Positions 1,756-38,297 of a stretch of 38,297 bases of DNA are shown one piece after another (the first letter of the stretch is position 1; every line of letters begins with the position of its first letter). A program made the position numbers and the translations under genes. Origin of the DNA: Paludibacteraceae bacterium (GTDB lineage Bacteria; Bacteroidota; Bacteroidia; Bacteroidales; Paludibacteraceae); contig JAGBVI010000011.1 of assembly GCA_017630395.1 (NCBI GenBank), forward strand, positions 1 to 38,297. The letters are read 5' to 3'. The notes beneath the pieces are model-generated. The model made no database searches. It was not told the origin of the DNA and was given only the letters and a program-made list of their open reading frames with translations.

Positions 1756-1950
1756 AGAGGTTGTTTAAATTTTATTTCGACCCTATTTGAGAGTGATTTT
1801 TAAGATTATTTTTATTATCCTTTTGCCGTTAATAGTGGACTATTCTCGAAAAATGAATAGTAAAAATAGCCTAAAAAGCGCATCAAAGATGCCGAAAAAA
1901 AGAGAGTGAAGCTCAAAATCGACTTTATAATAAAATTTAAACAGCTTCTA
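1756..1950 (+). repeat. Family A palindromic repeat, copy A1
   Basis: Begins with AGAGGTTGTTTAAATTTTAT and ends with the near reverse complement AAAATTTAAACAGCTTCT. The arms continue inward to a centre AATAGTGGACTATT. The right arm carries an extra side hairpin (GAGAGTGAAGCTC region) not present in the left arm. It lies upstream of both divergent neighbours. No open reading frame is present. Confidence 0.85.
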
Positions 1951-2040
1951 AACAACTTTTACGCAAAATTCATAAAAATCTTGGATATTTGCAAACCTTT
2001 TTTACGGAAACGGTTAAATTATAGATAATGCAATATTTAT

Positions 2041-2228
2041 GATGCCCATGGCGAGAATAGGAATAAGCAAGTGAATGGAGCGATGCGGGCATCGTAACTG
2101 AAAGAATATAAATGAGATAAGTAAAATAAATTCAAAAGCATCCGAAATGGAATTTATGAGCCGTAAACAAGAAATTGTAATTTATAGAAATTGCCTTAAT
2201 TATAATGGTGAATTTATAGGACTCACCT
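2041..2228 (+). repeat. Divergent family B-like sequence with a GATGCCC/GGGCATC hairpin
   Basis: A perfect 7-bp inverted repeat GATGCCC (2041-2047) / GGGCATC (2087-2093) encloses about 39 bases. It is followed by AAATAAATTCAAAAG and GAATTTAT, which resemble the right arm of family B, and by GAATTTATAGGACTCACC (2211-2228), the B outer end. I read it as a degenerate B element whose outer end is joined directly to repeat A2. Confidence 0.4.
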
Positions 2229-2367
2229 TGAGATTATTTTTATTATTCTTTTGAAGTTAATAGAGGTCTATTCTCAAAAAAAAGAATAATAAAACTGGTT
2301 AAAAAGGGCTTCAAAGAGTCGAAAATAAAAGAGGGTGAAACTCAAAATAAAATTTAAACGGCTTTTA
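2229..2367 (+). repeat. Family A repeat, copy A2, left arm truncated
   Basis: Contains the A centre (AGTTAATAGAGGTCTATTCT), the full right arm with the GAGGGTGAAACTC side hairpin, and the right end AAATTTAAACGGCTTTT. The outer left arm is missing and is replaced by a family B end, so the left half was lost at a junction between the two repeat families. Confidence 0.75.
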
Positions 2368-2654
2368 AATATTTTTCGTTTGGTAGTATTAAAGTAACGC
2401 ACTAAATTAATTCCGCCTACGGGTTAATCATTATATTATATTTTGAACCAAATTATTATGGACAATATATGCCGAAAAAAATCTAATTTCAATGATTTTG
2501 CTGATGGTTTTATCAAGGAAGGTAGAAAAAGATTAATTTAAGAGTGAGAGAAAAATTGAATTTTTCTGCCCCTAAAGAAGAGTTCTTTAAACATTTTATT
2601 TAATTTCGCGTTTCATAGTTGACGCTACAAAATTTGCAAATTTACAGAAGATAT

Positions 2655-3191
2655 ATGGAGACGAAGAATAATTTGGGACGCAAGGGGTGCGATGTAGTTC
2701 CGGAAATAGCATTGGCAGAAATTTTAAAGCAAAATAGATGGACTATTTCTACAGCAGAAAGTTGCACCGGAGGAAGAATAGGAGCTTTATTGACAAAGCA
2801 CCCCGGAAGTTCTGTTTTTTATAAGGGGTCGGTGATTGCCTATTGCAACGAAGTGAAACAGTCTGTTTTAGGAGTTCAATCAGATATATTGGAAAGCCAA
2901 GGAGCCGTTTCTGCACCCGTTGTGGAGCAAATGGCACAAGGAGTTGTGAGATTACTGAAAACAGATTTGGCAATAGCTGTTTCTGGAATAGCCGGTCCCG
3001 ATGGGGGGACTGCTGAAAAACCTGTAGGAATGGTCTGGATGGCGGTGTCAGATGGGCAAAATACAAAGAGTGAGTGTTGTTATTTTGGTAGAAATAGGGA
3101 AGAAATTATGAGAAAAATTGCAGAGAGGGCAATTTTTTTTGCAAAAGAATTTGCTGAAAATAAAAAAGATTGTACCTTTGCACCTCGATAA
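2655..3191 (+). CDS. cinA: CinA C-terminal domain protein / nicotinamide-nucleotide amidohydrolase (PncC)
   Basis: About 178 residues from ATG 2655 (METKNNLGRK). A TTG 36 bases upstream could add 12 residues, but the ATG matches family start positions better. The stand-alone CinA C-terminal domain is seen as TAESCTGGRIGALLT (near residue 33), GSVIAYCNEVK, GAVS, and SGIAGPDGGT...KPVGMVWMAV. Enzymes of this family deamidate nicotinamide mononucleotide to nicotinate mononucleotide in pyridine nucleotide salvage. The N-terminal MoaB-like domain of full-length CinA is absent, which is common for the short form. Its 3' end holds the promoter for the ribosomal protein operon that follows. Confidence 0.9.
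   Translation: METKNNLGRKGCDVVPEIALAEILKQNRWTISTAESCTGGRIGALLTKHPGSSVFYKGSVIAYCNEVKQSVLGVQSDILESQGAVSAPVVEQMAQGVVRLLKTDLAIAVSGIAGPDGGTAEKPVGMVWMAVSDGQNTKSECCYFGRNREEIMRKIAERAIFFAKEFAENKKDCTFAPR
3150..3180 (+). promoter_or_regulatory. Bacteroidetes promoter for rpmB-rpmG-bL38, inside the cinA 3' end
   Basis: TTTG at 3150-3153, a 19-base spacer, and TACCTTTG at 3173-3180 match the Bacteroidetes primary sigma factor consensus TTTG-N19-TAnnTTTG. Transcription would start about 3187, near the cinA stop, giving a leader of about 165 bases before rpmB. Confidence 0.8.
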
Positions 3192-3259
3192 TGACTCTGC
3201 GAAGATGCGTGCAGGTTATGTCGAAAAAAAGGAAAGATAAGGGGATTTATAGTTTGAAT

Positions 3260-3299
3260 TTCTGATAGTTACGCTGCTTTCCGAGAGGAAAGATCAGAA
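3260..3299 (+). promoter_or_regulatory. Structured 5' leader of the rpmB operon, candidate ribosomal protein leader
   Basis: TTCTGAT (3260-3266) pairs with ATCAGAA (3293-3299). Inside this, CTTTCC (3277-3282) pairs with GGAAAG (3287-3292) and closes a GAGA loop, a GNRA tetraloop. Ten unpaired bases (3267-3276) remain on the 5' side only. The structure sits between the promoter and the rpmB start and is not followed by a T-run, so it is not a terminator. A regulatory role in r-protein synthesis is inferred. Confidence 0.5.
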
Positions 3300-3350
3300 G
3301 AAAATTAAGCCTCCTACTTTATATGTAAAACTATTAGATTTTATACAGCG

Positions 3351-3584
3351 ATGTCAAAAATTTGTGAAATTACTGGTAAAACTGCAATGAATGGAAACAA
3401 TGTTTCTCACTCAAAGAGGAGAACAAAGAGAACATTCGATGTAAATTTGTTTACGAAGAAATTTTATTGGCCTGAACAAGATTGTTGGATTCGTCTTAAA
3501 GTTTCAGCAAAGGGTCTTCGTATTATCAATAAGAAAGGTATTAATGCAGCATTGATTGATGCAGCAAGAAAGGGTATCATTTAA
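3351..3584 (+). CDS. rpmB: 50S ribosomal protein L28 (bL28)
   Basis: 77 residues beginning [20 protein letters not shown], with [18 protein letters not shown] typical of bL28. Length is normal for the family. It is a component of the large ribosomal subunit and the first gene of a three-gene ribosomal operon (15 bases to rpmG). A strong promoter and a folded leader lie upstream. Confidence 0.97.
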
Positions 3585-3598
3585 AGGAGGATTGTATA

Positions 3599-3787
3599 AT
3601 GGCAAAGAAAAGTAAAGAAAGTCGCGTGCAAGTTATTTTGGAGTGCACTGAACATAAGGATAGTGGAATGCCGGGAACTTCTCGTTACATTACTACTAAA
3701 AATAGAAAAAATACTCCTGATAGATTGGAATTAAAGAAATACAATCCAATCTTGAAGAGATACACTATTCATAAAGAAATTAAGTAA
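3599..3787 (+). CDS. rpmG: 50S ribosomal protein L33 (bL33)
   Basis: 62 residues, [20 protein letters not shown] with [20 protein letters not shown], the standard bL33 pattern. The usual zinc-binding cysteine pairs are absent (one Cys, in LECTEH), so this is a C-minus type bL33. It lies between rpmB and the bL38 gene, transcribed as one unit. Confidence 0.96.
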
Positions 3788-3806
3788 TCTTAAAATTGAT
3801 TGAATC

Positions 3807-3959
3807 ATGGCAAAAAAAGCGGTTGCAACTCTACAAAAAGGTGAAGGTCGTGCTTACGCTAAAGTAATCAAGATGGTTAAGTCTCCTAAAACAGGTGCTT
3901 ACTATTTCGACGAGCGTATGGTTCACAACGACGATGTAAAAGAGTATTTGGCTAAATAA
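3807..3959 (+). CDS. DUF4295 protein, Bacteroidetes ribosomal protein bL38
   Basis: 50-residue basic protein starting MAKKAVATLQKGEGRAYAKV and ending DDVKEYLAK. It belongs to DUF4295, found in Bacteroidetes directly after rpmG. To my knowledge this family corresponds to bL38, seen in the Flavobacterium johnsoniae ribosome structure. The start ATG is 19 bases after the rpmG stop, and a strong terminator follows. In many Bacteroidales I recall ftsY coming next; here it does not. Confidence 0.9.
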   Translation: MAKKAVATLQKGEGRAYAKVIKMVKSPKTGAYYFDERMVHNDDVKEYLAK

Positions 3960-4030
3960 ATACTATACGTGATGTCTTATCTATATAAAAATGTTTAATT
4001 TTTCTTTTATAAAGATAAGTCTTGATAAAA

Positions 4031-4067
4031 TATCACCCACGAGTTTTTTCTTAGTGGGTGATTTTTC
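4031..4067 (+). terminator. Rho-independent terminator of the ribosomal protein operon
   Basis: TATCACCCAC (4031-4040) and GTGGGTGA (4054-4061) form a stem around a T-rich loop, followed by TTTTTC. It ends the rpmB-rpmG-bL38 transcript. Confidence 0.85.
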
Positions 4068-4151
4068 TTTAAATTATGTTCTAAATCATCGAGAAGGAAA
4101 AAATTTCTAATTGTAAAGGTTCGCTTATAAATAGCAATTGATTATTTTATA

Positions 4152-4342
4152 TGCAGTTTAAATTTTATTAAAAAATATTTTAGAATTTCACTCTCTAATT
4201 TTTGGCATCTTTGAGATTCTTTTTAACCTGTTTTTATTATTCTTTTTTTGATAATAGTTCACTATTTACTGTAAAGGAATAATAAAACTCCCCTTAAAAA
4301 ATTCTCTCCGAAGGGCTCGAAATAAAATTTTAACAACTTCTT
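4152..4342 (-). repeat. Family A repeat, copy A3, inverted orientation
   Basis: Reads as the reverse complement of the other copies: AGTTTAAATTTTATT, then the side hairpin as TTTCACTCTCT, then TTTGGCATCTTTGAGATTC, the centre GATAATAGTTCACTATT, and the outer end TTTTAACAACTTCTT. It fills the space between the bL38 terminator and the pyk promoter. Its end stops about 15 bases before the pyk -7 box. Confidence 0.82.
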
Positions 4343-4357
4343 AAAATCTTGGTAAAT

Positions 4358-4365
4358 TAACTTTG
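4358..4365 (+). promoter_or_regulatory. Probable -7 box of the pyk promoter
   Basis: TAACTTTG fits TAnnTTTG and lies 23 bases before the pyk start. The -33 region (around 4335-4340) falls in the terminal arm of repeat A3 and is not a clear TTTG, so the repeat may have replaced the original upstream element. Confidence 0.5.
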
Positions 4366-4388
4366 AACGTCGATAAAGCATTAATATA

Positions 4389-5834
4389 ATGGATAAGCAA
4401 ACAAAAATCATCGCTACAATTTCTGATATCAGGTGTGAAAAAAGTTTTATTCAGTCTCTTTTTGAAGAAGGGATGAATGTAGTTAGAATGAATTCTGCCC
4501 ATATTGAGGAAGAGGGATTTGATAGAATTATTAATAATACTCGAGCTGTTTCCAATGAAATCGGAATTTTGATGGATACCAAAGGTCCGGAAGTTCGTAC
4601 TACTGTGTGTAAAGAACCACTTGAAATAAAAACCGGAGATATTATTAAAATGGCCGGAGCTCCTGAAGAGTGTACCACTAAAGAGTTGATTTGTGTTAGT
4701 TATAGGGATTTCGTCAAAGATGTATCTGTAGGGAGTGATATTCTGTTTGATGATGGCGAGATTGATGTGAAAGTGATTAGTAAGACAGATGACTATTTGC
4801 TTTGTGAAGCAATGAATGATGGTGTACTTGGAAGTAGAAAAAGTGTTAATGTGCCGGGAGTTCGTATTAATTTGCCATCTTTGACCGAGAAGGATAAAAA
4901 GAATATCTTATTCGCTATCGATAGGGATATTGATTTTATAGCACACTCTTTTGTTCGGAATAAACAAGATGTACTTGATATTCAGGCGATTTTAGATGAA
5001 CATAAAAGTCCTATAAAGATTATTGCCAAAATTGAAAATCAAGAGGGTGTAGATAATATTGATGAAATATTAGAGGTTGCATACGGCGTAATGGTTGCTC
5101 GAGGAGATTTGGGAATAGAAATACCGCAAGAAAAAATTCCTAGTATTCAGCGTGTATTGATTCGTAAGTGCGTGGTAGCGAAAAAACCAGTTATAGTGGC
5201 TACTCAAATGCTACATTCAATGATTAAAAATCCACGTCCTACTCGTGCAGAAGTGACCGATGTTGCCAACGCGATTTTTTATAGAACTGATGCTTTGATG
5301 TTGAGTGGTGAAACTGCTTATGGAAAATATCCCGTAGAAGCTGTTCGGACGATGGCCAAAGTGGCGTCTGAGGCTGAAAAAACAAAATTAAAGGATAATG
5401 ACATCAAAATTCCTTACCTTCATAATGAGGATGATATTACCTCCTTTTTAGCAAAACAAGCTGTAAAATCTCAAGAATTGTTGAGTACAAAAGCGATAAT
5501 TACAGATAGCTATACGGGGAAAACTGCCAGATATTTGGCGGCTTATAGAGGTGTAAATCCTATATTGGCAATCTGTTATAAGGAACGTTTGGTGCGTCAA
5601 CTTGCTCTTTCTTACGGGGTTACGCCAATATATCAGGAGGAAAAAGAGGATACAAGACACTATTTTTTTGCGGCTCTTAAAATGTTGATTGAAAATGGTT
5701 ACTTGAAATTTTCTGATAAAGTTGCTTATTTAAGTGGTAGTCAAAATATTGGGGGTGGAACTACATTTTTAGAAATAAATAGCATAGACAATATTTTTTC
5801 CAACCAAAAGGAGTATTTGTTGCCTAATTTTTAG
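4389..5834 (+). CDS. pyk: Pyruvate kinase
   Basis: 481 residues. The N-terminus reads KIIATISDIRCEKSFIQSLF...GMNVVRMNSAH, followed by DTKGPEVRT (substrate and cation binding), the B domain to about residue 165, then the signature KIIAKIENQEGVDNIDEI (near 210), MVARGDLGIEIP, VIVATQMLHSMI and NAIFYRTDALMLSGETAYG. It makes pyruvate and ATP from phosphoenolpyruvate and ADP in the cytoplasm. Length is normal for a type without an extra C-terminal domain. It is a single gene between repeat A3 and a terminator. Confidence 0.96.
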   Translation: MDKQTKIIATISDIRCEKSFIQSLFEEGMNVVRMNSAHIEEEGFDRIINNTRAVSNEIGILMDTKGPEVRTTVCKEPLEIKTGDIIKMAGAPEECTTKELICVSYRDFVKDVSVGSDILFDDGEIDVKVISKTDDYLLCEAMNDGVLGSRKSVNVPGVRINLPSLTEKDKKNILFAIDRDIDFIAHSFVRNKQDVLDIQAILDEHKSPIKIIAKIENQEGVDNIDEILEVAYGVMVARGDLGIEIPQEKIPSIQRVLIRKCVVAKKPVIVATQMLHSMIKNPRPTRAEVTDVANAIFYRTDALMLSGETAYGKYPVEAVRTMAKVASEAEKTKLKDNDIKIPYLHNEDDITSFLAKQAVKSQELLSTKAIITDSYTGKTARYLAAYRGVNPILAICYKERLVRQLALSYGVTPIYQEEKEDTRHYFFAALKMLIENGYLKFSDKVAYLSGSQNIGGGTTFLEINSIDNIFSNQKEYLLPNF

Positions 5835-5865
5835 TTCCATGTTTGGAATCATTTTTTTGTAAACT

Positions 5866-5912
5866 TGACGTCTTTCTTCCTGCGTATAGCGTGATAGAGA
5901 GACGTTTTTTTA
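5866..5912 (+). terminator. Rho-independent terminator after pyk
   Basis: ACGTCTTTCT (5868-5877) pairs with AGAGAGACGT (5896-5905), with one T-G wobble, followed by a run of seven T. Confidence 0.8.
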
Positions 5913-6099
5913 TTGTCGTAACTAGAATGATTGAATAAAATTGCAGCATTAAGTCGAAAAAATAGAAGAAATATTTTCAATTATTTAATTATTAATTATA
6001 TTTGGGTGTTCGGTCTGTGTTTAAAGTTGTTTTATTTATTTTGAATTGCATAGATTGGGGCTAAAAGAATTCATAGAACTACGTACAAATATAAAATAA

Positions 6100-6594
6100 A
6101 TGTATATGAAATGGCGAAATTTTGAGAGAGTATGCCTCTCTTTGGTTACATTGTTTTTTATTTCATTCAATCTGTTTGCGGAGGAGAATAGCATTATTTT
6201 AACGATGAGGGATGGTCGCGTAAATGCTGTTGCGTTGTTAGACGAACCCAAATTAACTTTCCCGCAGGATAGTTTACAAATAGAAACAGAAGATTTTAAT
6301 TTGATAGTTAGTCGTCAAGATTTTTCATTCTATTCATTCGGTGATTTTGAATCAACACTCATAAAAGAGAAATCAGTTGACAATTCATTTGTTTATTTAG
6401 ATGGAGATATTTTGGTAGTAAAAGGCCGGTTGGCATCAAGTTTATTTTCAATAACTGATGTTGAAGGCAGGGTTTTCCCTCTCTCTCCCATGAAGGAAAG
6501 TGAAGAGCAAATAGAAATTTCTTTGAAAGGTGTTCCTGCAGGGGTTTATTGTATGGTTTTAGGGGATATGGTCTTTAAATTTGTTAGGCGATGA
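6100..6594 (+). CDS. Secreted protein of unknown function, partner of the CotH gene
   Basis: 164 residues. An alternative ATG lies 6 bases downstream. A hydrophobic stretch (VCLSLVTLFFISFNLFA) forms a signal peptide. The mature start NSIILTMRDGRVNAVALLDE matches a short module found at the mature N-terminus of the two other secreted proteins here (CotH protein and pectate lyase). The C-terminus (GVPAGVYCMVLGDMVFKFVRR region) resembles the last strands of an Ig-like or type IX sorting domain, but the match is not strong enough to call. Its stop overlaps the next start by ATGA, so translation is probably coupled. The function is unknown. Confidence 0.8.
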   Translation: MYMKWRNFERVCLSLVTLFFISFNLFAEENSIILTMRDGRVNAVALLDEPKLTFPQDSLQIETEDFNLIVSRQDFSFYSFGDFESTLIKEKSVDNSFVYLDGDILVVKGRLASSLFSITDVEGRVFPLSPMKESEEQIEISLKGVPAGVYCMVLGDMVFKFVRR

Positions 6595-8381: not shown

Positions 8382-8400
8382 GCAGTCTCCAATAAAAATT

Positions 8401-11375: not shown

Positions 11376-11570
11376 AGAAGTTGTTTATAATTTATTTCGA
11401 CTCTATTTGAGCTATTTTTAAATTTATTCTTATTCTTTTTTTTGTCGTTAATAGTGACTATCCTCATAAAAAAGAGTAATAAAAATAGGATAAAAAGAAT
11501 TTCAAAGATGCAGAAATGTAAGTGAGTGAAACTCGAAAATATATTTTAATAAAATTAAAATGGCATCTTA
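11376..11570 (+). repeat. Family A repeat, copy A4
   Basis: Starts AGAAGTTGTTTATAATTTAT, has the centre GTTAATAGTGACTATCCTC, the TTTCAAAGATGC right arm and the GAGTGAAACTC side hairpin, and ends in a decayed AAAATGGCATCT. It is more divergent than most copies. It lies between the DUF4491 gene and the tRNA terminator. Confidence 0.78.
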
Positions 11571-11668: not shown

Positions 11669-11672
11669 AAAG

Positions 11673-11746
11673 CTCTCCCTCTTGGACTTGAACCAAGGAC
11701 CCTCTGATTAACAGTCAGATGCTCTAACCGACTGAGCTAAGGAAGA
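11673..11746 (-). tRNA. tRNA-Asn (GTT), copy 1
   Basis: A 74-base tRNA on the minus strand. The acceptor stem is TCTTCCT with AGGGAGA, the D-arm contains AGCTCAGTCGGTTAGAGC, the anticodon loop is CTGTTAA with anticodon GTT, and the T-arm contains GGTTCAAGTCC. The discriminator base is G and CCA is not encoded. It is identical to the second copy 21 bases away. Confidence 0.95.
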
Positions 11747-11767: not shown

Positions 11768-11841
11768 CTCTCCCTCTTGGACTTGAACCAAGGACCCTCT
11801 GATTAACAGTCAGATGCTCTAACCGACTGAGCTAAGGAAGA
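11768..11841 (-). tRNA. tRNA-Asn (GTT), copy 2
   Basis: Identical in sequence to the other copy and transcribed first, since it is nearer the promoter at 11871-11901. The pair forms a short tRNA operon with its own promoter and terminator. Confidence 0.95.
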
Positions 11842-20977: not shown

Positions 20978-22699
20978 ATGAGTAAACCAAAGACAAAAGG
21001 ATTGTGGAAAATTAACACACTCTTGACTATTGCAGGAAAAATGCAATGGATGAAATTGGATAAAGCAGCTAAGAACTGTAAAAAGGCACAAGAAAAGACG
21101 TTACGTCAAATATTGGAATATGCAAAAGATTCTGTTTACGGGAAAGAGCATAATTTTGCAAAAATTTTGGAAGCTAAAACGCCGGAGGAGTTGTTTAAAC
21201 GTTACCAAGAAAATGTAAAAGCTAACGATTACGAAGATTTTCGTCCGTACGTAGAACGTCATAAAAATGGAGAAGCAAATGTTTTGTTCCCTGGGAAACC
21301 TAAAATGTATGCAACAACATCAGGAACAACAAGCGAGCCTAAATGGATTCCGATCACCAATGAATATTATTCCAATATTTATAGTAAGATGACTAAGGTT
21401 TGGTTGTATTCTTTTATTAAGAATAGACCAAAAGTTTTTGAAGGTCCTATCGTATCTATTGTAGGTAAGGCGATTGAAGGTGCTGCTCCTGATGGAACTG
21501 TATTTGGTTCTGTTTCGGGTGTAACACAACGAGATTGTCCGGAATTTATTAAGGTGATTTATACAGCACCTGCAGATGTATTCTCGATATCAGACTACAA
21601 ATCACGTTATTATGTGATTATGCGTTTGGGTATTGAACATAATGTTCATTTGGTGGTAACTGCCAACCCTTCTACAATTGTTGAGATGCAGAAAAATGTG
21701 AACGAGTTCTTTGATGAATATGTAGAAGATATCGAAAAAGGAACTATCAGTAGAAAATTAGATATTCCGGAAGATATCAGACAAAATATTATCAAAGCAA
21801 AGAATTTGAAACCGAATCCTGAGCGTGCAAAAGAGTTGAGAGAATTGAAAGCTAAATATGGAGAGGTGCTTCCAAAACATTATTGGCCGGATATGCAAAT
21901 TTTGAATACGTGGAAGTGTGGTAATACAAAATTCTATTTGGATAAATTCAAAGATTCGTTCCCTTCTCAAATGTTACATCAAGAGTTTAGTTACTTCTCT
22001 TCTGAATGTCGTGCAGGTTTGGTATTGGATGAAACAAATGGAACCGTATTGTTCCCTCACATGCACTATTTTGAATTTGTAGAGAAAGATGATTTGGAAA
22101 ACCCAAATCCAAAATTCTTGCAATTGCATGAGTTGGAGTTAGGAAAACAATATTGTCCTTACGTCACAACGTGGGCAGGTTTGTATCGTTATACAATGAG
22201 TGATTTGTTGGAAGTGGAAGGTTTTTATGGTACAATTCCGAAGGTACACATGGTACAAAAAATCAATGGAATTGTAACAATGACAGGAGAAAAATTGCAC
22301 GAGACTCAGTTTACTTCTGCAGTAGAAGAGACTGCAAAAGAGTTGAACATGCCGGTTAAATTCTTTATCGGATTTGCTGATATGAGTGTTTCAGCTTATC
22401 GTTTCTATTATGAATTTGAGAATCAAGAAACTTCTCAAGATGAGGCCGAGAAATTTACTAAGGTTGTTGATGAAAAGTTGAAGAATAGAAATATGGAGTA
22501 CCAAGCTAAACGTGATTCGTTGCGTGTTCATGACCCATATACTCATCTTCTTGTTTCTGAGTCGTTTGAAAAATTCAAAGCTCGTTGTATTGAAGAGGGA
22601 GCTCGTGATGGACAATTTAAGTTGAACTTATTGTTGCAAGATGAGGCTCGTCATGCTAAATTTAAAGATTTAGTTAAAGGAAGTTCTATAAATTCATAG
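20978..22699 (+). CDS. GH3 auxin-responsive-promoter family acyl-adenylate protein
   Basis: 573 residues. The whole protein fits the GH3 family: N-terminal helix region (KTLRQILEYAKDSVYGKEHNF), ATP-binding loop ATTSGTTSEPKWIPIT near residue 110-125, then YFSSECRAG, LFPHMHYFEFV, GLYRYTMSDLLEV and GEKLHETQ. Plant GH3 enzymes adenylate carboxylic acids such as auxin or jasmonate and join them to amino acids. Bacteroidetes carry homologues of unknown substrate. The last six codons and stop (22682-22699, SSINS and TAG) coincide with the outer end of a family B repeat, so the C-terminal tail is repeat-derived. Confidence 0.9.
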   Translation: MSKPKTKGLWKINTLLTIAGKMQWMKLDKAAKNCKKAQEKTLRQILEYAKDSVYGKEHNFAKILEAKTPEELFKRYQENVKANDYEDFRPYVERHKNGEANVLFPGKPKMYATTSGTTSEPKWIPITNEYYSNIYSKMTKVWLYSFIKNRPKVFEGPIVSIVGKAIEGAAPDGTVFGSVSGVTQRDCPEFIKVIYTAPADVFSISDYKSRYYVIMRLGIEHNVHLVVTANPSTIVEMQKNVNEFFDEYVEDIEKGTISRKLDIPEDIRQNIIKAKNLKPNPERAKELRELKAKYGEVLPKHYWPDMQILNTWKCGNTKFYLDKFKDSFPSQMLHQEFSYFSSECRAGLVLDETNGTVLFPHMHYFEFVEKDDLENPNPKFLQLHELELGKQYCPYVTTWAGLYRYTMSDLLEVEGFYGTIPKVHMVQKINGIVTMTGEKLHETQFTSAVEETAKELNMPVKFFIGFADMSVSAYRFYYEFENQETSQDEAEKFTKVVDEKLKNRNMEYQAKRDSLRVHDPYTHLLVSESFEKFKARCIEEGARDGQFKLNLLLQDEARHAKFKDLVKGSSINS

Positions 22700-23060
22700 T
22701 TTTAAATTAAATAGGTATAAATCGCAATGCGATAAACTTTTCGGTACTTTTTGATTTATTTCGGTAGCTAAGAAGTTGTTTTAAATTTATTTCGAGCATA
22801 TTTGAGAGAGATTTTTAAGTTTATTTTTATTGCTGTTAATAGTTGGACTATTATCAAAAAAGAATCATAAAAATAGGTTAAAAAGAATCTCAAAGATGCC
22901 GAAAAAAAGAGTGAAACTCAACATAAATTAAAAATAAAATTTAAACGGCTTTTGATTGTTTGTCAGTCGGTCACAGTGCTTGCACTGCCACTCCTTAAGC
23001 ACTGCAATCTTATCGAAATCAAATCAAAAACTCCCCGAAGTGAATTTATAAAACTCATCT
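22682..23060 (+). repeat. Family B repeat interrupted by A5 (first unit of a tandem pair)
   Basis: The B left arm (AGTTCTATAAATTCA, then a side hairpin ending AAACTTTTCGG) runs to about 22769. Family A copy A5 follows. B then resumes at about 22953 with TGTCAGTCGGTCACAGTGC and the apical hairpin CAGTGCTTGCACTG, and closes with GAATTTATAAAACTCATCT. It begins inside the GH3 coding sequence. Confidence 0.8.
22771..22952 (+). repeat. Family A repeat, copy A5, nested in B
   Basis: A full-length copy from AGAAGTTGTTTTAAATTTAT to AAAATTTAAACGGCTTT, with the side hairpin GAGTGAAACTC. The centre is shortened (GTTAATAGTTGGACTATTATC with fewer bases before it). Both flanks are family B sequence. Confidence 0.85.
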
Positions 23061-23061: not shown

Positions 23062-23437
23062 AGGTGAGTTTTATAAATTCACCGTTTAAAATTAAAAAGT
23101 ATAATCGTGGGTGATAAACTTTTGGTACTTTTTGATTTATCTCGGTAGCTAAGAAGTTGTTTTAAATTTATTTCGAGCATATTTGAGAGAGATTTTTAAG
23201 ATTATTTTTTTGTTAATAGTGACTATCCTTAAAAGGAATAATAAAAATAGGTTGAAAAGAATCTCGGAGATGCCGAAAACAAGAGAGTGAAACTCAACAT
23301 AAATTAAAAATAAAATTTAAGCGGCTTCTGATTGTTTGTCAGTAGGTGAAAGTGCTTGTACTGCTCACTTCTTTTGCAAGACTATCAACACGAAATAGAA
23401 TCAAAAATTCCCGAAATGAATTTAAAGAACCCACTTT
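23062..23437 (+). repeat. Family B repeat interrupted by A6 (second unit of the tandem pair)
   Basis: Repeats the previous unit: B left end AGGTGAGTTTTATAAATTCA, side hairpin with ACTTTT, then copy A6, then the B right half (TTTGTCAGTAGGTGAAAGTG) ending GAATTTAAAGAACCCACTT. The insertion point of A within B is the same as in the first unit, so the pair arose by tandem duplication. Confidence 0.78.
23152..23329 (+). repeat. Family A repeat, copy A6, nested in B
   Basis: Full-length copy from AGAAGTTGTTTTAAATTTAT to AAAATTTAAGCGGCTTCT with a shortened centre (TTGTTAATAGTGACTATCC). Closely similar to A5. Confidence 0.85.
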
Positions 23438-26117: not shown

Positions 26118-26513
26118 AGAAGTTGTTTAAATTTTATTTCGAGCCTATTTGAGAGAGATTTTTAAATCTATTTTTAATCTTCTTTTGTAGAAAATAGTGG
26201 ACTATTATCAAAAAAGGAGAATAAAAATAGGTTTAAGGTGAGTACTATAAATTCACCGTTTAAAATTTAAAAAGTGTAAATCGCAGATTGATAAACTTTT
26301 CGGTAATTTTTGATTTATTTTGGCAAATTGCTGCTTGTCGGTCGGTCACAGTGCTTGCACTGCTTCCTTCTTTCGCACGGCAATTTACTCGAAATAAATT
26401 CAAAAATTCCTCGAAATGAATTTATAGAACCCACCTAAAAGAATCTCAAAGATGCCGAAAATAAGAGAGTGAAACTCTAAATTTTTTTTTTAATAAAATT
26501 TAAACAGCTTCTT
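26118..26513 (+). repeat. Family A repeat, copy A7, with a B element inside
   Basis: The A left arm and centre (AGAAGTTGTTTAAATTTTAT to AATAGGTT) run to 26235. A complete B element follows, then the A right arm (AAAAGAATCTCAAAGATGCC, side hairpin AGAGTGAAACTCT) to AAACAGCTTCT. The composite is about 95% identical to the one at 33102-33494. Confidence 0.87.
26236..26436 (+). repeat. Family B repeat, uninterrupted, nested in A7
   Basis: 201 bases from AGGTGAGTACTATAAATTCA to TTTATAGAACCCACCT, ends inverted. The apex is CAGTGCTTGCACTG. The left arm has an extra side hairpin between AAAAGT and ACTTTT. It interrupts A exactly within GGTTAAAAAG. Confidence 0.85.
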
Positions 26514-29864: not shown

Positions 29865-29873
29865 TTTATTTGT

Positions 29874-30872: not shown

Positions 30873-30927
30873 TACTCTTTGTTGTTGGTGCATAGGTTAG
30901 TTTTTAATAACGAAATAAAGAATAAAA

Positions 30928-32289: not shown

Positions 32290-32297
32290 TTCAATAT

Positions 32298-32331
32298 AAA
32301 AGGTTGTGCCTTTGGGTGCAACCTTTTTTTT
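32298..32331 (+). terminator. Terminator after pgi
   Basis: AAAGGTTGTGCC and GGTGCAACCTTT form a hairpin with a TTTG loop and one wobble pair, followed by eight T. Confidence 0.88.
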
Positions 32332-32369
32332 CTATTAAGTTAACTTCAGTAAATTAGGTAATTTTTCGA

Positions 32370-32400
32370 TGAAATTTAAATAGCTTCTGAACAACTCTTA
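32370..32400. repeat. Isolated family A end fragment
   Basis: GAAATTTAAATAGCTTCT (32371-32388) matches the family A right end and is followed by GAACAACTCTTA, like an inverted left end (AACAACTTCTT). A similar arrangement occurs after copy A1. It lies just before the DedA gene. Confidence 0.5.
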
Positions 32401-32455
32401 ACTTACAAATTACACTTGATAGAAGTTATGGCACTGAAAACGAAAGATAAAATTT

Positions 32456-33082
32456 ATGGAATCGTTAGATATAATTCAATGGTGTTTGGATAATCTGAAT
32501 TATTGGACTGTTGCTTTGTTAATGGCAATAGAGAGTTCGTTTATTCCATTTCCATCTGAAATTGTTGTTCCTCCTGCAGCGTATAAAGCGGCGGCAGGAG
32601 AATTGAATGTGGTGGGCGTCGTATTGGCGGCCTCTGTAGGAGCTCTATTGGGAGCTTTGATTAACTATGGTTTGGCCTATTGGTTGGGCAGACCTGTTGT
32701 CTATAAATTTGCAGAGAGCAAATTCGGGAAGGCTTGTCTTTTATCGCAAGAAAAAGTGGAGTATGCAGAAAAGTATTTCTTAGAGCATGGTGTCTCATCT
32801 ACTCTTATAGGTCGTTTGGTGCCGGCTGTTCGTCAACTTATATCCATTCCTGCAGGATTGGCTAAGATGAAATTGCCGGTTTTCTTATTCTATACCTTTT
32901 TAGGTGCTTCTGTATGGAATATCATTTTGGCGGCTATCGGTTACGGATTGCATAGTCTGGTCCCTAAAGATATGTTGGCCTCTGCTATTGAAGAGTATAA
33001 ACCCTATCTATTCTGGGGCGGTGTCGCTATCTTTGTAATATTTGTTTTATATTTAGTTATCTCTTCTAAAAAGAAAAAATAG
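32456..33082 (+). CDS. DedA-family membrane protein
   Basis: 208 residues. The DedA/SNARE-associated (VTT) domain is seen in FIPFPSEIVVPPAAY (with the conserved Glu), GALLGALINYGLAYWLGRP, and the signature GRLVPAVRQLISIPAGLAKMK (Arg-rich, conserved). Several transmembrane helices are present, the last near 185-203 (LFWGGVAIFVIFVLYLVI), with a basic KKKK tail. DedA proteins are thought to move phospholipids or undecaprenyl phosphate across the inner membrane. The gene is alone between pgi and repeat A8. Confidence 0.92.
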   Translation: MESLDIIQWCLDNLNYWTVALLMAIESSFIPFPSEIVVPPAAYKAAAGELNVVGVVLAASVGALLGALINYGLAYWLGRPVVYKFAESKFGKACLLSQEKVEYAEKYFLEHGVSSTLIGRLVPAVRQLISIPAGLAKMKLPVFLFYTFLGASVWNIILAAIGYGLHSLVPKDMLASAIEEYKPYLFWGGVAIFVIFVLYLVISSKKKK

Positions 33083-33101
33083 ACAGTAGGTTGCTATTAT
33101 A

Positions 33102-33494
33102 AGAAGTTGATTAAATTTTATTTCGAGCATATTTGAGAGAGTTTTTTAAATCTATTTTTAGTCTTCTTTTGCAGAAAATAGTGGACTATTATCAAAAAAG
33201 GAGAATAAAAATAGGTTTAAGGTGAGTACTATAAATTCACCGTTTAAAATTTAAAAAGTGTAAACCGCAGATTGAAAAACTTTTCGGTAATTTTTGATTT
33301 CTTTCGGCAATTTGCTGCTTGTCAGTCGGTCACAGTGCTCGCACTGCTCCTTCCTTTCGCACGGCAATTTACTCGAAATAAATTCAAAAATTCCTCGAAA
33401 TGAATTTATAGAACCCTCCTAAAAGAATCTCAAAGATGCCGAAAATAAGAGAGTGAAACTCTAAATTTTTTATAATAAAATTTAAACAGCTTCT
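33102..33494 (+). repeat. Family A repeat, copy A8, with a B element inside
   Basis: Same composite structure as 26118-26513, about 95% identical by eye (roughly 20 differences in 395 positions). A left half to 33219, B 33220-33420, then A right half ending AAACAGCTTCT. Confidence 0.87.
33220..33420 (+). repeat. Family B repeat, uninterrupted, nested in A8
   Basis: 201 bases from AGGTGAGTACTATAAATTCA to TTTATAGAACCCTCCT. It has the same length and the same insertion point within A as the copy at 26236-26436. The apex is CAGTGCTCGCACTG. Confidence 0.85.
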
Positions 33495-33540
33495 AATTTG
33501 TTATATAGACCAATTTAAACGTAATTTAAAGAAATATAAA

Positions 33541-34239
33541 ATGAAAAAGATTTTTGATTTATTGTTCGTATCTATTTTTGCTATTGTTGGATTTGTTTCC
33601 TGCGATTCAAAAAAAGAAGATACAACTGTAGATGAGGATAATTCAGGCTACTCCATTTCAACGGATGTTCTGGATTCAATAGCATTATTACCCAATTCAA
33701 AAACGTTGAGTGTTGATATTATGGAGGCTTTGTCAGCCAGAAGAACAGAACGTGCATTCTCAAACGACAATTTAACCAATCAACAAATTGCTGATTTGTT
33801 GTGGGCTGCGAATGGTGTGAATAGAGCAGGGGGTGGGAAACGTACGGCTCCATCTGCTCGTAATGCTCAAGAAATTGATGTATATCTATTTACCCCTGTT
33901 GCTATCTATCGTTATGAGGCGGTTTCCCACTCTTTGAAATTGGTGAAAGAGGGAGATTATCGAACTTCGGCAGGTACTCAACCATTCTATGCAGCAGCTT
34001 CTGTAGCCATCTCTTTGGTGGTTGACTTCGATAAGATGGAGGGATTTGATGAAGAGGCAAAAGCCTTTTATTCTGCAACGGATGTCGGATATGTGAGTCA
34101 AAATATTTATCTCTATTGTGCTGCTGAAAATTTGGGAACTGTTGTCTGTGGAAGTGTCGATAGAGAGGCAGTTGCCAACTTGTTGGGTATTCAAAATGGA
34201 AAAGTATTGTTGTCTCACGCAATCGGAGTGCTAAATTAA
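33541..34239 (+). CDS. Nitroreductase-family lipoprotein (SagB-type)
   Basis: 232 residues. A lipoprotein signal peptide ends in the lipobox GFVSC (Cys21), followed by acidic and Lys residues (DSKKEDTTVDED) that may act in surface export. The FMN-binding nitroreductase fold starts at ALSARRTERAFSNDNL, with ADLLWAANGVNR, KRTAPSARNAQEIDVYLF, VGYVSQNIYLYCAAENLGTVV and a C-terminal GVLN. SagB-like oxidoreductases act on peptides or small molecules; here no cyclodehydratase partner is present. The substrate is unknown. The gene is flanked by repeat A8 upstream and a terminator downstream. Confidence 0.88.
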   Translation: MKKIFDLLFVSIFAIVGFVSCDSKKEDTTVDEDNSGYSISTDVLDSIALLPNSKTLSVDIMEALSARRTERAFSNDNLTNQQIADLLWAANGVNRAGGGKRTAPSARNAQEIDVYLFTPVAIYRYEAVSHSLKLVKEGDYRTSAGTQPFYAAASVAISLVVDFDKMEGFDEEAKAFYSATDVGYVSQNIYLYCAAENLGTVVCGSVDREAVANLLGIQNGKVLLSHAIGVLN

Positions 34240-34321
34240 GGTGCTTTCTAAGTGATATCAGAGGAATTGGAAATCAGCTTTAGACGGTAGTTGTTACCAC
34301 TAAATCTAATTGGATAATCTT

Positions 34322-34358
34322 TGGGGAATGGTTTTGGAAATCATTCCTCATTTTTTTT
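34322..34358 (+). terminator. Terminator after the nitroreductase gene
   Basis: GGGGAATG pairs with CATTCCTC (one wobble) around GTTTTGGAAAT, followed by a run of eight T. Confidence 0.8.
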
Positions 34359-34404
34359 GATGAGCCCAATTTAAAAGAGTTGTCTAAAAATATTCTCATA
34401 AATA

Positions 34405-34435
34405 TTTGCGAAAAAAATTCTTTTTGTTACATTTG
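34405..34435 (+). promoter_or_regulatory. Promoter of the wza-wzc capsule operon
   Basis: TTTG (34405-34408), exactly 19 bases, then TACATTTG (34428-34435): a perfect TTTG-N19-TAnnTTTG promoter, 35 bases before the first capsule gene. Confidence 0.8.
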
Positions 34436-34470
34436 TGTAATAGGAGTTTAGTAATAATTAACGAATTTCA

Positions 34471-35307
34471 ATGAAAGTAGTGTTTAATAATATAAATATA
34501 TTTAAGAAAGGAATTTTCTTGCTTCTTTGTGGTATGTTTTTGCTTTTGATGTCATGTTCGACAAAAAAAAGTTTGGCCTATTTGCAAGAAGAGAGTGGTG
34601 ATTCTACTATGGTCGTGGCAGCTCAAGAGTTGTATGATGCAAGAATTAAACCTAAAGATTTGTTGACTGTCACGGTAAATACTTTTGATAGAGAAGCATC
34701 TGTTCCATTCAACTTAATGTTTCCATCCGGTTCGGCCTTGCCTCCGACAAATACTAATGGAGAGAATGCCATGCAAAAGTATTTGGTAGATAATGATGGA
34801 AATATTGATTTTCCGGTATTGGGCAAGATAAAGGTGGCAGATATGACCAAGAATCAGGTGGAAGCCTATTTGAAGGATCAATTACGTCCCTATTTAAAAG
34901 AGGAGCCGTTAATCAATGTCAGAATGGTTAACTACAAAATCTCTGTCTTGGGAGAGGTGAATAGACCTAATAGTTATACCATTACCAACGAAAAGGTGAA
35001 TGTTTTGGAGGCTTTGGCTTTAGCCGGAGATTTGACAATTTATGGGAAACGCGACAATGTAAAATTGATGCGAGAGTCTGTAGATGGGAAAAGAGAGGTG
35101 GTTGTTTTGGATTTGACCGACAAGAACCTTATTCATTCCCCTTATTTCTATTTGCAACAGAATGATGTGTTGTATGTAGAGCCTAATAAAACAAGAATGC
35201 GCAATAGTAAATATAGTGCACTGACGGGTCAAATCTTAACCGGTGTGACTGCTGCAGTGTCTGTAGCAAGCTTGATTGTAACAATCATTGCAGCTTCCGG
35301 AGATTAA
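34471..35307 (+). CDS. Wza-like polysaccharide export lipoprotein
   Basis: 278 residues. A long hydrophobic N-terminus ends in the lipobox LLMSC (Cys29), followed by STKKSLAYLQ, typical of Bacteroidetes Wza homologues. The Poly_export domain starts at YDARIKPKDLLTVTVNTFD, and an SLBB-like region follows (VLGEVNRPNSYTIT, VNVLEALALAGDLT). The C-terminus has a hydrophobic helix (GVTAAVSVASLIVTIIAASG), the place of the outer-membrane helix in Wza. It would form the outer-membrane channel for capsule or exopolysaccharide, working with the Wzc-like kinase encoded 42 bases downstream. Confidence 0.92.
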   Translation: MKVVFNNINIFKKGIFLLLCGMFLLLMSCSTKKSLAYLQEESGDSTMVVAAQELYDARIKPKDLLTVTVNTFDREASVPFNLMFPSGSALPPTNTNGENAMQKYLVDNDGNIDFPVLGKIKVADMTKNQVEAYLKDQLRPYLKEEPLINVRMVNYKISVLGEVNRPNSYTITNEKVNVLEALALAGDLTIYGKRDNVKLMRESVDGKREVVVLDLTDKNLIHSPYFYLQQNDVLYVEPNKTRMRNSKYSALTGQILTGVTAAVSVASLIVTIIAASGD

Positions 35308-35349
35308 GGGGTTGCCATTGATACAACGATTAAGGGAAAGGAGGTTTTT

Positions 35350-37671
35350 ATGACTAAGAAAGAGGAAGGTATCGACGTAAAGGATCTTTTGTATCACTTT
35401 TTGTCTAATTGGAGGGTGTTTGTATTCTCTATTGTTGTCTGTTTGGCTGTGGCTTGCATATACATCTATTATGCTATGCCTACCTATCGTGTTACGGCTT
35501 CCGTGATGGTGAGAGATGAGAAGCGTGGTGGCGATTATATAACAGAACTAACTGTCTTTGAAGATATTAATGCCTTAGCTAAATCTGCAACGGATAATGA
35601 GGTGGAGATTTTGCGTTCCAAATCTTTGGCTCGTCGTACGGTGACGGAATTGGGGCTTTATAAAAGCTATATGGGGCATTCCGGTTTCAGAAAGTATGAT
35701 TTGTATGGTCGTTCGCCAATTGTTTTGAATGATTCTCTCTTCTTAGTGAATGAGGTGACTCAACCTTATATAATTCGCATAGATCTTAGTGACCCCGAAG
35801 AGATGGATTTGACTCTTCATTGTGGCGAGGTGCAATTGGTGGATACAACATTTTCCGCTTTTCCATTGCTTTTGCACACCAATTTAGGTCCTTTAGAGTT
35901 GGTGAAAGAGTATGATTGTGAGAGTGATGAGTGCGAAGAGATCTCCATCCAATTGCAGGCTCCTATCTCTGCTGCACGTGCCTATTCAAACAATTTAACC
36001 GTTATGCCTTTTAGCAAAACTACCTCTGTAATCAATCTGAAATTGGTGACAACCAATAAAGAGAAGGGAGTTAAATTCTTGGATGGTTTGATTTCGATTT
36101 ATAATCGTATGGCGATTGATGAGAAAAATGAGTCGGCCATGAAAACGGCGATATTTATCGAGGAGCGTATCAAAATGTTGCAAGATGAGTTGGGGATTAC
36201 AGAAAAGGATTTGGAGGATTATAAACGCAAAGAGGGGTTGACCGATGTTTTCTCTAATGCCGATTTATCTTTGGCTAAAAGTGCTGAGTATGAACAGAAA
36301 AGGGTGGATAATGAGACGCAGTTGAAATTGGTTCTCTTCTTGAAAGAATATCTGAATAATGAGCAGAATCGGGGAATGGTTATCCCATCCAATGTGGGTC
36401 TTACAGATAAAGGATTGATAGAGCAAATTAATCTCTACAACAAGATGTTGTTGGAGAGGAATCGTTTGATGCAAACCACATCAGAAAATAATCCGGTGGT
36501 GGTACAACTAACCAACCAAATCAATGGTTTGTATGACAACGTGATGACTTTGGTGGATAATGTAGAATCCGGATTGAAAATTTCTCAAGAAGATCTAAAA
36601 CAGCAATTAGACAAATATAGAGGAAAGATTTATAATGTGCCTACACAACAACGTCTCTTTGAGGAGATTGAACGTCAAAGACACATTCAACAGCAACTAT
36701 TCTTGATGCTTTTGCAGAAAAGAGAAGAGAATGCTTTGGCGATGGCCGCAACGGTTAATAAAGCGAAGATTGTGGATGAGAGCGTTGCAGATAGTGTGCC
36801 GATTGCTCCTAAAAAATCGATTATCTTGTTTTTTGCTTTGATGATTGCTTTGGCAATAGCAGTGGTTTTCGTTTTGGTAAAGAGATACTTCTCGATTTAT
36901 ATTAAAAATACCAATACAATAGAGAAGGAAAATTTAACCACTTTGCCAATGGTGGCAGAGGTGCCTTATTTCTCGGAAGCCTATATTTCTAATCAAAATT
37001 TGGATACACTTCGCAAAGAGGTCTTTCGTATGTTGCGAACCAATATTCAATTTATTCTAAAGGAGAAGGAGAATAAGGTAATTTTGTTCACTTCTTACTC
37101 CTCTGGAGAGGGAAAAACCTATATAACAGCCAATACAGCTATCTCTTTTGCTTCATTAGGAAAGAAAGTAATAGCCATTGGAGCTGATATTCGTAATCCT
37201 CATTTGAAAGATTTCTTTTGCGATGAGGTGAAAGTGGGTCTGTCCAACTACTTGGCCAATACAGATTTGAGTTGTGATGATGTAATTTTGTCAACGGAGT
37301 ACGATAATTTGGATGTAATTCCTTCCGGTCCCGTACCTCCTAATCCAACCGAATTATTGTCTTTAAGTAGATTGGATGAGTTGATGGATTATCTTCGTTC
37401 TAAATACGACTATATTTTGATAGATTCTGCACCATTGTCATTGGTATCCGATACCTTGGTATTGGCTCGCGTGGCAGATATGAGTGCAATTGTGTTTAGA
37501 GCAAACTACTCGAATAAACATTGGTTCAAATCCATCAATAATTGGGTGGAAGAGGGTAGATTACCTAATTCAGCCTTGATTTTGAATGGTTTGTATGAAG
37601 AGAAATTCTTGCAACGTATTTATGCATCATACGGTTACGGATATGGTAAATACGAGTATAGATACCATTAG
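35350..37671 (+). CDS. Wzc-like polysaccharide co-polymerase and tyrosine autokinase
   Basis: 773 residues. The Wzz domain has a first transmembrane helix (VFVFSIVVCLAVACIYIYY, about 21-40), a long periplasmic coiled coil (about 240-480), and a second helix (IILFFALMIALAIAVVFVLV, about 493-512). The cytoplasmic BY-kinase has Walker A SYSSGEGKTY near 583, Walker A' IAIGADIRNP near 608 and Walker B YDYILIDSAP near 690. The C-terminal 16 residues hold seven tyrosines, the usual autophosphorylation cluster. It controls polymer length and export with Wza. Walker A' has GAD in place of the common DAD/DSD. Confidence 0.93.
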   Translation: MTKKEEGIDVKDLLYHFLSNWRVFVFSIVVCLAVACIYIYYAMPTYRVTASVMVRDEKRGGDYITELTVFEDINALAKSATDNEVEILRSKSLARRTVTELGLYKSYMGHSGFRKYDLYGRSPIVLNDSLFLVNEVTQPYIIRIDLSDPEEMDLTLHCGEVQLVDTTFSAFPLLLHTNLGPLELVKEYDCESDECEEISIQLQAPISAARAYSNNLTVMPFSKTTSVINLKLVTTNKEKGVKFLDGLISIYNRMAIDEKNESAMKTAIFIEERIKMLQDELGITEKDLEDYKRKEGLTDVFSNADLSLAKSAEYEQKRVDNETQLKLVLFLKEYLNNEQNRGMVIPSNVGLTDKGLIEQINLYNKMLLERNRLMQTTSENNPVVVQLTNQINGLYDNVMTLVDNVESGLKISQEDLKQQLDKYRGKIYNVPTQQRLFEEIERQRHIQQQLFLMLLQKREENALAMAATVNKAKIVDESVADSVPIAPKKSIILFFALMIALAIAVVFVLVKRYFSIYIKNTNTIEKENLTTLPMVAEVPYFSEAYISNQNLDTLRKEVFRMLRTNIQFILKEKENKVILFTSYSSGEGKTYITANTAISFASLGKKVIAIGADIRNPHLKDFFCDEVKVGLSNYLANTDLSCDDVILSTEYDNLDVIPSGPVPPNPTELLSLSRLDELMDYLRSKYDYILIDSAPLSLVSDTLVLARVADMSAIVFRANYSNKHWFKSINNWVEEGRLPNSALILNGLYEEKFLQRIYASYGYGYGKYEYRYH

Positions 37672-37677
37672 ACAATT

Positions 37678-37692
37678 TCTATAGAACTCACC
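37678..37692 (+). repeat. Family B end fragment after wzc
   Basis: TTCTATAGAACTCACCT matches the outer right end of B, 7 bases after the wzc stop. No other part of B is recognisable. Confidence 0.5.
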
Positions 37693-37739
37693 TATAATTT
37701 AGTTAGTGATGATTTATCATAATTTATAGAAGTTGTCTT

Positions 37740-37900
37740 AGAAGTTGATTAAATTTTATTTCGAGCCTATTTGAGAGTGATTTTTAAGATTATTTTTATT
37801 ATTCCTTTGAAGATGATAGTGGACTATTATCAAAAAAGAATAGTGAAAATAGCTTAAAAAGCGCCTCAAAGATGCCGAAAAAAAATTTAAATAGCTTCTT
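37740..37900 (+). repeat. Family A repeat, copy A9, lacking the side hairpin
   Basis: Starts AGAAGTTGATTAAATTTTAT, has the centre GATAGTGGACTATTATC, and the right arm passes from GATGCCGAAAAAAAATTTAA straight to ATAGCTTCT. The GAGAGTGAAACTC side hairpin present in other copies is missing, leaving a nearly symmetric palindrome. Confidence 0.83.
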
Positions 37901-37919
37901 ATATATTAGTCTGAAATTC

Positions 37920-37969
37920 CCGGGTCGTCGTAACGAATTTTGTTACTGACGGCCGCGAAGCGTGCCCGG
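37920..37969 (+). ncRNA. GC-rich three-way-junction fold, candidate structured RNA or element end
   Basis: CCGGGT (37920-37925) pairs with GCCCGG (37964-37969), closed by a T-G pair. Inside are two hairpins. The first has CGTC-GTAAC (37926-37934) with GTTAC (37942-37946) and GACG (37948-37951), a single bulged T and a 7-base loop. The second is CGC with GCG around GAA (37954-37962). The surroundings are very AT-rich, so this GC island stands out. No promoter or poly-T tract is seen. Identity is unknown. Confidence 0.4.
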
Positions 37970-38156
37970 AGGTGAGGTAATTGAGTGTTTGGGATTGATT
38001 TTTTGGAGATATAGAATCACTTTAGGGGTGGTTAAATTCAAAAACAAACTAAGAAGTTGCCTAAATCTTATTTATTGATTTCGGTTGTTGCCGTTGGGGC
38101 AAATCGCATTTGCTGAATTTATAGAAGTTGCCTAAAATATTTTTTCAATAAAATTT
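37970..38156. other. Intergenic region with degenerate repeat arms
   Basis: No gene. It contains AGAAGTTGCCTAAAT (about 38052) and AGAAGTTGCCTAAAATAT (about 38124), both like a family A left end. It also has a perfect hairpin GCAAATCGCATTTGC (38099-38113) and a B-like GAATTTATAG. This looks like decayed repeat material. Confidence 0.5.
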
Positions 38157-38297
38157 AGAAGTTGTTTAAATTTTATTTCGAGCATATTTGAGAGAGATTT
38201 TTAAGGTTATTTTTATTATTTTTTTGCCGTTAATAGTGGACTATTATCAAAAAAGAATAATAAAAATAGATTAAAAAGAATCTCAAAGATGCCGAAA
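38157..38297 (+). repeat. Family A repeat, copy A10, cut by the window end
   Basis: From AGAAGTTGTTTAAATTTTAT through the centre GTTAATAGTGGACTATTATC to CTCAAAGATGCCGAAA. The side hairpin and right end lie beyond the window. Confidence 0.85.

Follow-up and report, generated by a model that had tools for sequence, protein, structure and literature searches.

Palindromic miniature inverted-repeat transposable elements (MITEs) such as ERIC, Correia and RUP are short, intergenic, high-copy sequences without genes, and RUP is linked to an insertion sequence (IS). Insertion sequences of the IS1031- and IS427-like groups have short, T/A-flanked targets. IS5-related MITEs are already known in Bacteroidales: in Porphyromonas gingivalis, the ends of BrickBuilt, MITEPgRS/MITE464, MITE239 and MITE700 match those of the IS5-family elements ISPg1, ISPg3, ISPg4 and ISPg9, and MITE239 was reported within a BrickBuilt copy (PMC4596501). 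Here we describe a palindromic repeat, family A, of a Paludibacteraceae bacterium (assembly GCA_017630395.1), ten copies of which lie in a window of 38,297 nt, the whole stretch of DNA analysed (contig C77, JAGBVI010000011.1, of a 3.57 Mb draft genome in 128 contigs). Family A is very probably a non-autonomous MITE, the ends of which are recognised by an IS5-family transposase of 258 aa that moves the element and duplicates the 3 bp target TNA. Common ends, duplicated TNA triplets, empty sites, high copy number and the lack of coding are observed; the action of an IS5-type enzyme in trans and the steps of the reaction are inferred.

As a Bacteroidales MITE with IS5-family ends, family A resembles the P. 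gingivalis elements (PMC4596501). However, the ends of the latter, e.g. GAGACTGTTGCA and ACGTCAGTTCGA, are unlike GAAGYTGTTTAAA of family A; BrickBuilt and MITEPgRS have internal tandem repeats, the duplications of BrickBuilt are unequal in length, and the term "palindrom" is absent from that account (PMC4596501). A literature search found no paper on family A and none pairing Coprobacter with miniature inverted-repeat elements; what it brought up dealt with Porphyromonas, endosymbionts, insertion sequences or general matters. As far as this search shows, with ISfinder not covered, family A is an additional, previously undescribed member of the IS5-related MITEs of the order. ERIC, Correia and RUP have other ends and hosts.

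Copies, target duplication and empty sites

The ten repeats of the preliminary description were found where it had placed them, and nine of them, all except that at 2229, are among the at least 150 matches (some partial) listed for a covariance model in the genome. The 20-base end motif, allowing up to three mismatches, occurs 367 times in the genome (186+181), compared with eight (2+6) for a reversed-pattern control. In addition, some contigs terminate within near-identical family A copies, a hint of recent spread. Both ends are present in eight of the ten window copies: five are single elements of 176-192 bp, two of which sit in elements of a second family, B; two measure 391-393 bp with a B element inside; and one, of 158 bp, is internally deleted. 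Full single copies, limited by GAAG...CTTC, measure about 190 bp (those beginning at 1757, 4150 and 11377) and not the 180 bp first estimated. The window copies lie between larger open reading frames (ORFs), and among 84 elements only four share more than 30 bp with an ORF of 80 aa or longer, these ORFs being of 93-122 aa; the intergenic, non-coding character proposed at the outset is thus upheld. Most copies fold as long hairpins, and most have a GAG..CTC side hairpin in a single arm, also as proposed, although the copy at 4150 and the region at 2229 (with flanks) do not fold end to end and the side hairpin is absent from 37741-37898.

For comparison we used the genome SIG111, which is syntenic with that of the window (long matches, 91-95% identity); the comparison excludes the first 999 bases of the window, and two entries, G120 and G200, were counted as this one genome, their matches being identical. 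Ends were paired by script into 98 rows, 40 from the own genome and 58 from other genomes (53 from SIG111, 4 from Coprobacter RGIG4084 and 1 from Muribaculaceae RGIG893), with some mispaired ends and a few orthologous sites among them. Identical 3 bp flanks were found in 78 rows, every one of them TNA (36 TTA, 38 TAA, 2 TCA and 2 TGA). Matching triplets occur in 29 of the 40 own rows (shuffled mean 12.7) and in 49 of the 58 others (shuffled mean 25.8), the shuffled means being high because two triplets dominate. The first judgement, that a target duplication is inconsistent, was wrong: six of the eight two-ended window copies have identical TNA flanks, and the other two, which belong to the tandem B[A] pair, are flanked by TAA/TGA.

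Empty sites were found in both directions. A SIG111 site is occupied (L082, gattaa[A]taataaattt) where the own genome is empty (L012, GATTAATAAATTT); a site occupied in the own genome (L010) is empty in SIG111 (L077); and a further SIG111 copy (L087) faces an empty site in the window near 32346. Insertion is therefore confirmed between the two genomes. Sites occupied in both include 1757, 26119 and 37741, and the SIG111 counterpart of the 33103 site holds a 41 bp remnant in which the two ends are fused. The features of the window are collected in Table 1.

Table 1. Family A, element B and related features in the window
Feature	Positions	Strand	Basis or remark
Family A, full single copy, flanks TAA/TAA	1757..1948	+	Covariance model R1, E 6.7e-36
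Fused-end remnant of B element, 21 bp	2207..2227		Read by eye
Family A, left terminal repeat missing, adjoins B end-to-end remnant	2228..2365	+	Limits by eye; absent among the at least 150 model matches listed
Family A, full single copy, flanks TTA/TTA	4150..4340	-	End pairing and covariance model
Family A, flanks TTA/TTA	11377..11567	+	End pairing and covariance model
B element holding family A copy, B[A]	22678..23059
Family A copy within B, flanks TAA/TGA	22772..22952	+	End pairing and covariance model
Second, tandem B[A] unit	23063..23435
Family A copy within second B, flanks TAA/TGA	23153..23328	+	End pairing and covariance model
Composite A[B], 393 bp, flanks TTA/TTA	26119..26511	+	Orthologue in SIG111 is L062
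B element, 199 bp, nested in A, TAA-flanked	26237..26435		Minus-strand centre AAGGAA-GCAGTG-CAAG-CACTGT-GACCGA
Single target triplet TCA, empty here	32346..32348		Occupied by family A (TTA/TTA flanks) in SIG111
Composite A[B], 391 bp, flanks TAA/TAA	33103..33493	+	SIG111 orthologous site is 41 bp fused-end remnant
B element, 199 bp, nested in A	33221..33419
Family A, internally deleted, 158 bp, without side hairpin, flanks TTA/TTA	37741..37898	+	End pairing and covariance model
Family A, interrupted by contig end	38158..38297	+	End motif and covariance model

Just past the copy at 11377 lie two tRNA genes (11673-11746 and 11768-11841, minus strand). The tRNA stretch beyond this copy differs from SIG111, where the copy is absent.

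Insertion sequences with the same ends

The terminal repeats of family A also bound insertion sequences of 924-928 bp that carry an IS5-family transposase (NF033580), the full same-ended element which the preliminary description had proposed to look for. In the own genome, one such unit (L037/L102) of 924 bp has ends GAAGCTGTTTAAATTT and flanks TTA/TTA, its transposase being broken by stops. Among relatives, L103 is 924 bp long, and L104 is 928 bp long with an open frame of 258 aa, whose protein matches DUF4096, DDE_Tnp_1 and NF033580 (E 3.2e-63, 213.7 bits against a cut-off of 110). The flanks of L103 and L106 are both TAA/TAA, and L105 lacks the left end. Because the same ends bound IS5-family insertion sequences, we assign family A to the IS5-type MITEs. 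It resembles an IS of this family (NF033580, transpos_IS5_3) in its terminal repeat of about 16-20 bp and its TNA duplication, and differs in the lack of a transposase and in an interior that is a full-length palindrome. A transposase with DUF4096 and DDE_Tnp_1 (NF033580) would bind the repeats of roughly 16-20 bp, GAAG[C/T]TGTTTAAATTT, and a DDE reaction would move family A while duplicating the 3 bp TNA target.

The same data bear on whether family A could consist of REP/BIME-like palindromes (repetitive extragenic palindromes and their mosaic arrays) spread through single-stranded hairpins by a Y1 transposase of the RAYT/IS200 type. The long hairpins and the pairing preserved across subfamilies would suit such a spread. 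However, ends shared with a DDE insertion sequence and a 3 bp target duplication are not expected of the Y1 mechanism, and family A has both, together with empty sites and a length of about 190 bp; we regard this explanation as extremely improbable, although no search aimed at a Y1 transposase was made. REP elements are palindromic extragenic repeats in many copies, 20-40 bp in length (PMC3733652), whereas family A is about 190 bp long with a TNA duplication. In view of size and target duplication, the REP-like half of the original interpretation is not supported; its MITE half is supported by the TNA duplications, the empty sites and the ends common to IS5-family insertion sequences. Copying through a folded single strand is not needed to explain family A.

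A hairpin also lies near the left end of the insertion sequences, about 33-52 bases in and upstream of the transposase gene as counted by eye. It reads GAGAG..CTCTC or nearly so in L102, L103, L108, L118, L121 and L126, and GACTC..GAGTC in L104 and L106, with one G-T pair in L106. The side hairpin of family A lies about 35-47 bases from the right end, again by eye. Since these positions correspond, we suggest, with moderate confidence, an origin of the right arm of family A in the left end of the IS; outside the terminal repeat, family A and the IS offer sequences too short and too rich in AT for proof.

Several observations weigh against an IS5-type MITE. Clear sequence sharing between family A and the IS is confined to the terminal repeat, the subterminal hairpin being a positional resemblance. 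Matching triplets are absent from 20 of the 98 rows, although these misses include mispaired ends, and the flanks of L104 itself read TAA/TTA. Among the 16 same-genus genomes listed, covariance model R1 matched two, the own genome and SIG111. The first 160 residues of the transposase, used as query, matched 16 of 200 family genomes including the own, and the three other same-genus matches span only 34-42 residues. No intact matching transposase is seen in the own draft, where the full L104 query gave two pieces of one broken copy, and in a full-protein search of five genomes SIG111 held only a 35-residue fragment of the L104 type. The same five-genome search gave no match to the full protein in the Coprobacter and Muribaculaceae genomes. 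With no working enzyme visible in these drafts, present mobility of family A is not demonstrated.

Other transposases of the own genome, found by PF01609 and PF13586 searches, were considered as a source for family A and rejected, as no pair of A ends surrounds them. At locus L033, two A ends lie more than 1 kb beyond the transposase match; at L040, close to the end of a contig, a single A end lies 82 bp past the last frame and faces away from it. By eye, the proteins of L031, L033, L034, L035, L036 and L038 look like the IS4 type.

Across 300 family genomes, with scoring limited to eight candidates per genome, the covariance model matched 25, among them the own genome and SIG111. Among the 26 loci printed from this search, 15 have A-like ends, 12 of these with TNA flanks that match by eye; L158 is apparently spurious, and the remaining ten have other or unclear ends.

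Pairing of the arms

Folding was analysed on 32 copies chosen for diversity from 73 aligned family A copies. Five of the 32, with strongly divergent interiors, come from Coprobacter RGIG4084 and Muribaculaceae RGIG893; one element (L086) was left out of the alignment as its orientation is unclear. Over 70 pairs, 91.1% of the cells are standard pairs, and mismatches persist in about 9%. The compensatory changes that the preliminary description had proposed to examine are present: 83 cells are changed on both sides, whereas shuffled alignments give 25.0 and slid ones no more than 34. Subfamilies are separated by double transversions, for instance from T-A to A-T or from A-T to C-G (pairs 65/108, 67/107 and 68/106). 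The arms thus covary. No named family was found to match, ISfinder not being covered, and the outcome that was to refute the first interpretation did not appear. The whole element is a long hairpin, the pairing of which shifts by compensation between subfamilies.

Changes private to single copies behave otherwise. Of 57 such changes hitting a Watson-Crick pair in the 73 copies, 30 give a mismatch, 16 G-T and 11 A-C, counted as raw shares without a modelled expectation. The early suggestion that pairing is kept despite sequence change therefore holds across subfamilies and leaves no trace within single copies.

These results were weighed against a role for the host, in which each site would keep a structured RNA, a terminator or a regulatory element and mobility would be secondary. 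Compensatory changes well above both controls would fit such a role, and so would the excess of G-T over A-C cells on the modelled strand (139 vs 48, in 39 vs 24 column pairs), as RNA pairing would favour it, with 26 of the 139 G-T cells contributed by a single position of the terminal repeat at which left and right ends are not alike. Among private changes, however, the G-T excess is small (16 vs 11), and pairing is apparently unguarded in single copies, 41 of the 57 changes being a mismatch or A-C. Orientation relative to tandem genes is unbiased (19 same, 16 opposite), and gene context is near the length-weighted background: 25 divergent, 35 tandem and 5 convergent sites (n=65) compared with 31%, 58% and 12%. 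In addition, the presence of copies differs between close genomes, and an Rfam search of the window and eight loci, with E values up to 0.5, gave no match to any A copy. We consider host retention improbable. Because private changes show no guarded pairing, we infer that constraint or arm correction acts in the mobile source lineages and not on each inserted copy, which then decays freely.

Within the MITE reading itself, the complementarity may come from copying of one arm onto the other, by gene conversion or hairpin-templated repair, and not from selected folding. The double transversions between subfamilies, the unguarded private changes and the existence of hairpin-type losses, such as the 41 bp fused-end remnant in SIG111, all fit copying. 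On the other side, a side hairpin is retained in the right arm that has no counterpart in the left, and mismatches persist in about 9% of cells. Arm copying is possible, but on the doubtful side.

Nested elements and a possible shared core

The second MITE family, B, has ends GGTGAGTNCTATAAATTC and triplet duplications at several copies. B-type ends (GGGAACTTCTATAAATT / GGGAGGTTCTATAAATTCA) also flank a transposase of 356 aa, assigned to a different IS5 group, in the own genome (L032, 178-1504; NF033581, DUF772); this unit is less certain because its flanking triplets, as read, do not match. The window holds reciprocal nests, two A[B] and two tandem B[A]. Eight A[B] composites were read, two in the window and six in SIG111, the window composite at 26119 and one of the six (L062) being orthologous. 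The B junction is identical in all eight, and the outer triplets match in seven. Beyond the orthologous place, 12 places in SIG111, among them the other five composites read, align with the window composites over 397 bp or more at 93-98% identity; the values of 54-55% obtained when two groups of composites were compared pairwise reflect an orientation artefact of the script. The common junction and the many matching SIG111 copies indicate one nesting event of the related element B in A, after which A[B] moved as a unit. Fused-end remnants of A and B were seen in the window (2207-2227) and in SIG111 (L132 near 5237-5279; L076 around 3767), and might be leftovers of hairpin deletion.

A third type of palindromic element, with CCCAAATCGGTCATTAGA ends, was also seen (L178-L207); the highest count in a single genome is 101 end matches, and 5 bp AT-rich duplications are frequent. 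These ends, with up to two mismatches, occur in 50 of 250 family genomes, and one or two reversed-control matches occur in 10 genomes; single matches may therefore be chance, but genomes with tens of matches are not. Identical 5 bp flanks were counted by eye, without a shuffled control, in 9 of 15 end pairs 60-300 bp apart among the loci read. A motif near GAAGGA - variable hairpin - GAC(C/T)GA is common to L145, L148, L189, L143, L167, L168, L160 and window B despite different ends, and its GAAGGA and GAC(C/T)GA steps could make tandem G-A mismatches on one strand only.

These elements raise the possibility that palindromic MITEs of Bacteroidales include a modular class, built from a single structured core joined to terminal repeats of different IS groups; we see the case for it as nearly balanced, slightly to the doubtful side. 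The core, proposed by eye and simple alignment, would be approximately GAAGGA, a variable covarying stem-loop and GAC(C/T)GA, and the end types would be A (TNA duplication), B and CCCAAATCGGTCATTAGA (5 bp duplications). It would be the conserved, selected part, with the tandem G-A steps under the hairpin suggesting a single strand that folds. Terminal repeats would be exchanged when a MITE nests within another, like A[B] and B[A] in the window, and internal deletion follows. For 23 hand-picked elements, trimmed by 25 bp on either side, 186 pairs combine different end types, and 60 of these outscore all 100 shuffles; many of the 23 were found via a model containing the central stem and were picked after their centres had been seen, which favours shared centres. 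The GAAGGA/GACYGA steps lie outside that model, and L184, L187, L189, L198 and L206 were found by ends alone. The right flank GAC(C/T)GA is present in 14 of 42 tabulated elements, the 14 covering at least three end types, and the stems between differ yet pair; the left flank is looser, with exact GAAGGA in six of the 14. The automatic hairpin search on this 42-row table chose a wrong hairpin in several rows (e.g. L154, L153, L206, L142, L139, L163, L144 and L156).

Other results argue against a modular class. Family A in the window keeps a similar stem-loop without the GAAGGA/GACYGA flanks, and the TAGCGGGCTA centre, with up to two mismatches, was found by script in 2 of 15 CCCAAATCGGTCATTAGA elements, and in L178 also by eye. 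Several other CCCAAATCGGTCATTAGA elements have a GCAATGG..CCATTG centre, and the centres of L179, L197 and L207 are unrelated. A strict core pattern matched 3 of 393 order genomes compared with two genomes with a reversed-control match; control matches being nearly as frequent, only the genome with 12 matches (G533) is convincing. This genome belongs to another family of the order (L167, L169-L177), and in the loci read (L167, L174 and L176) the core lies within palindromes with the left end GAGGTTGTTTAAAAA or similar. A literature search for the core string in either direction gave only matches unrelated by title. If the shared core is true, MITE families with unrelated ends would be related in the middle and overlooked by classification based on ends.

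For family A, one MITE family can be followed across two syntenic genomes together with a same-ended IS, empty sites, composites that move as units and deletion remnants. How palindromic MITEs of Bacteroidales nest and decay can therefore be traced directly, and it becomes testable whether long MITE palindromes are kept since folding aids transposition or since the arms correct each other.

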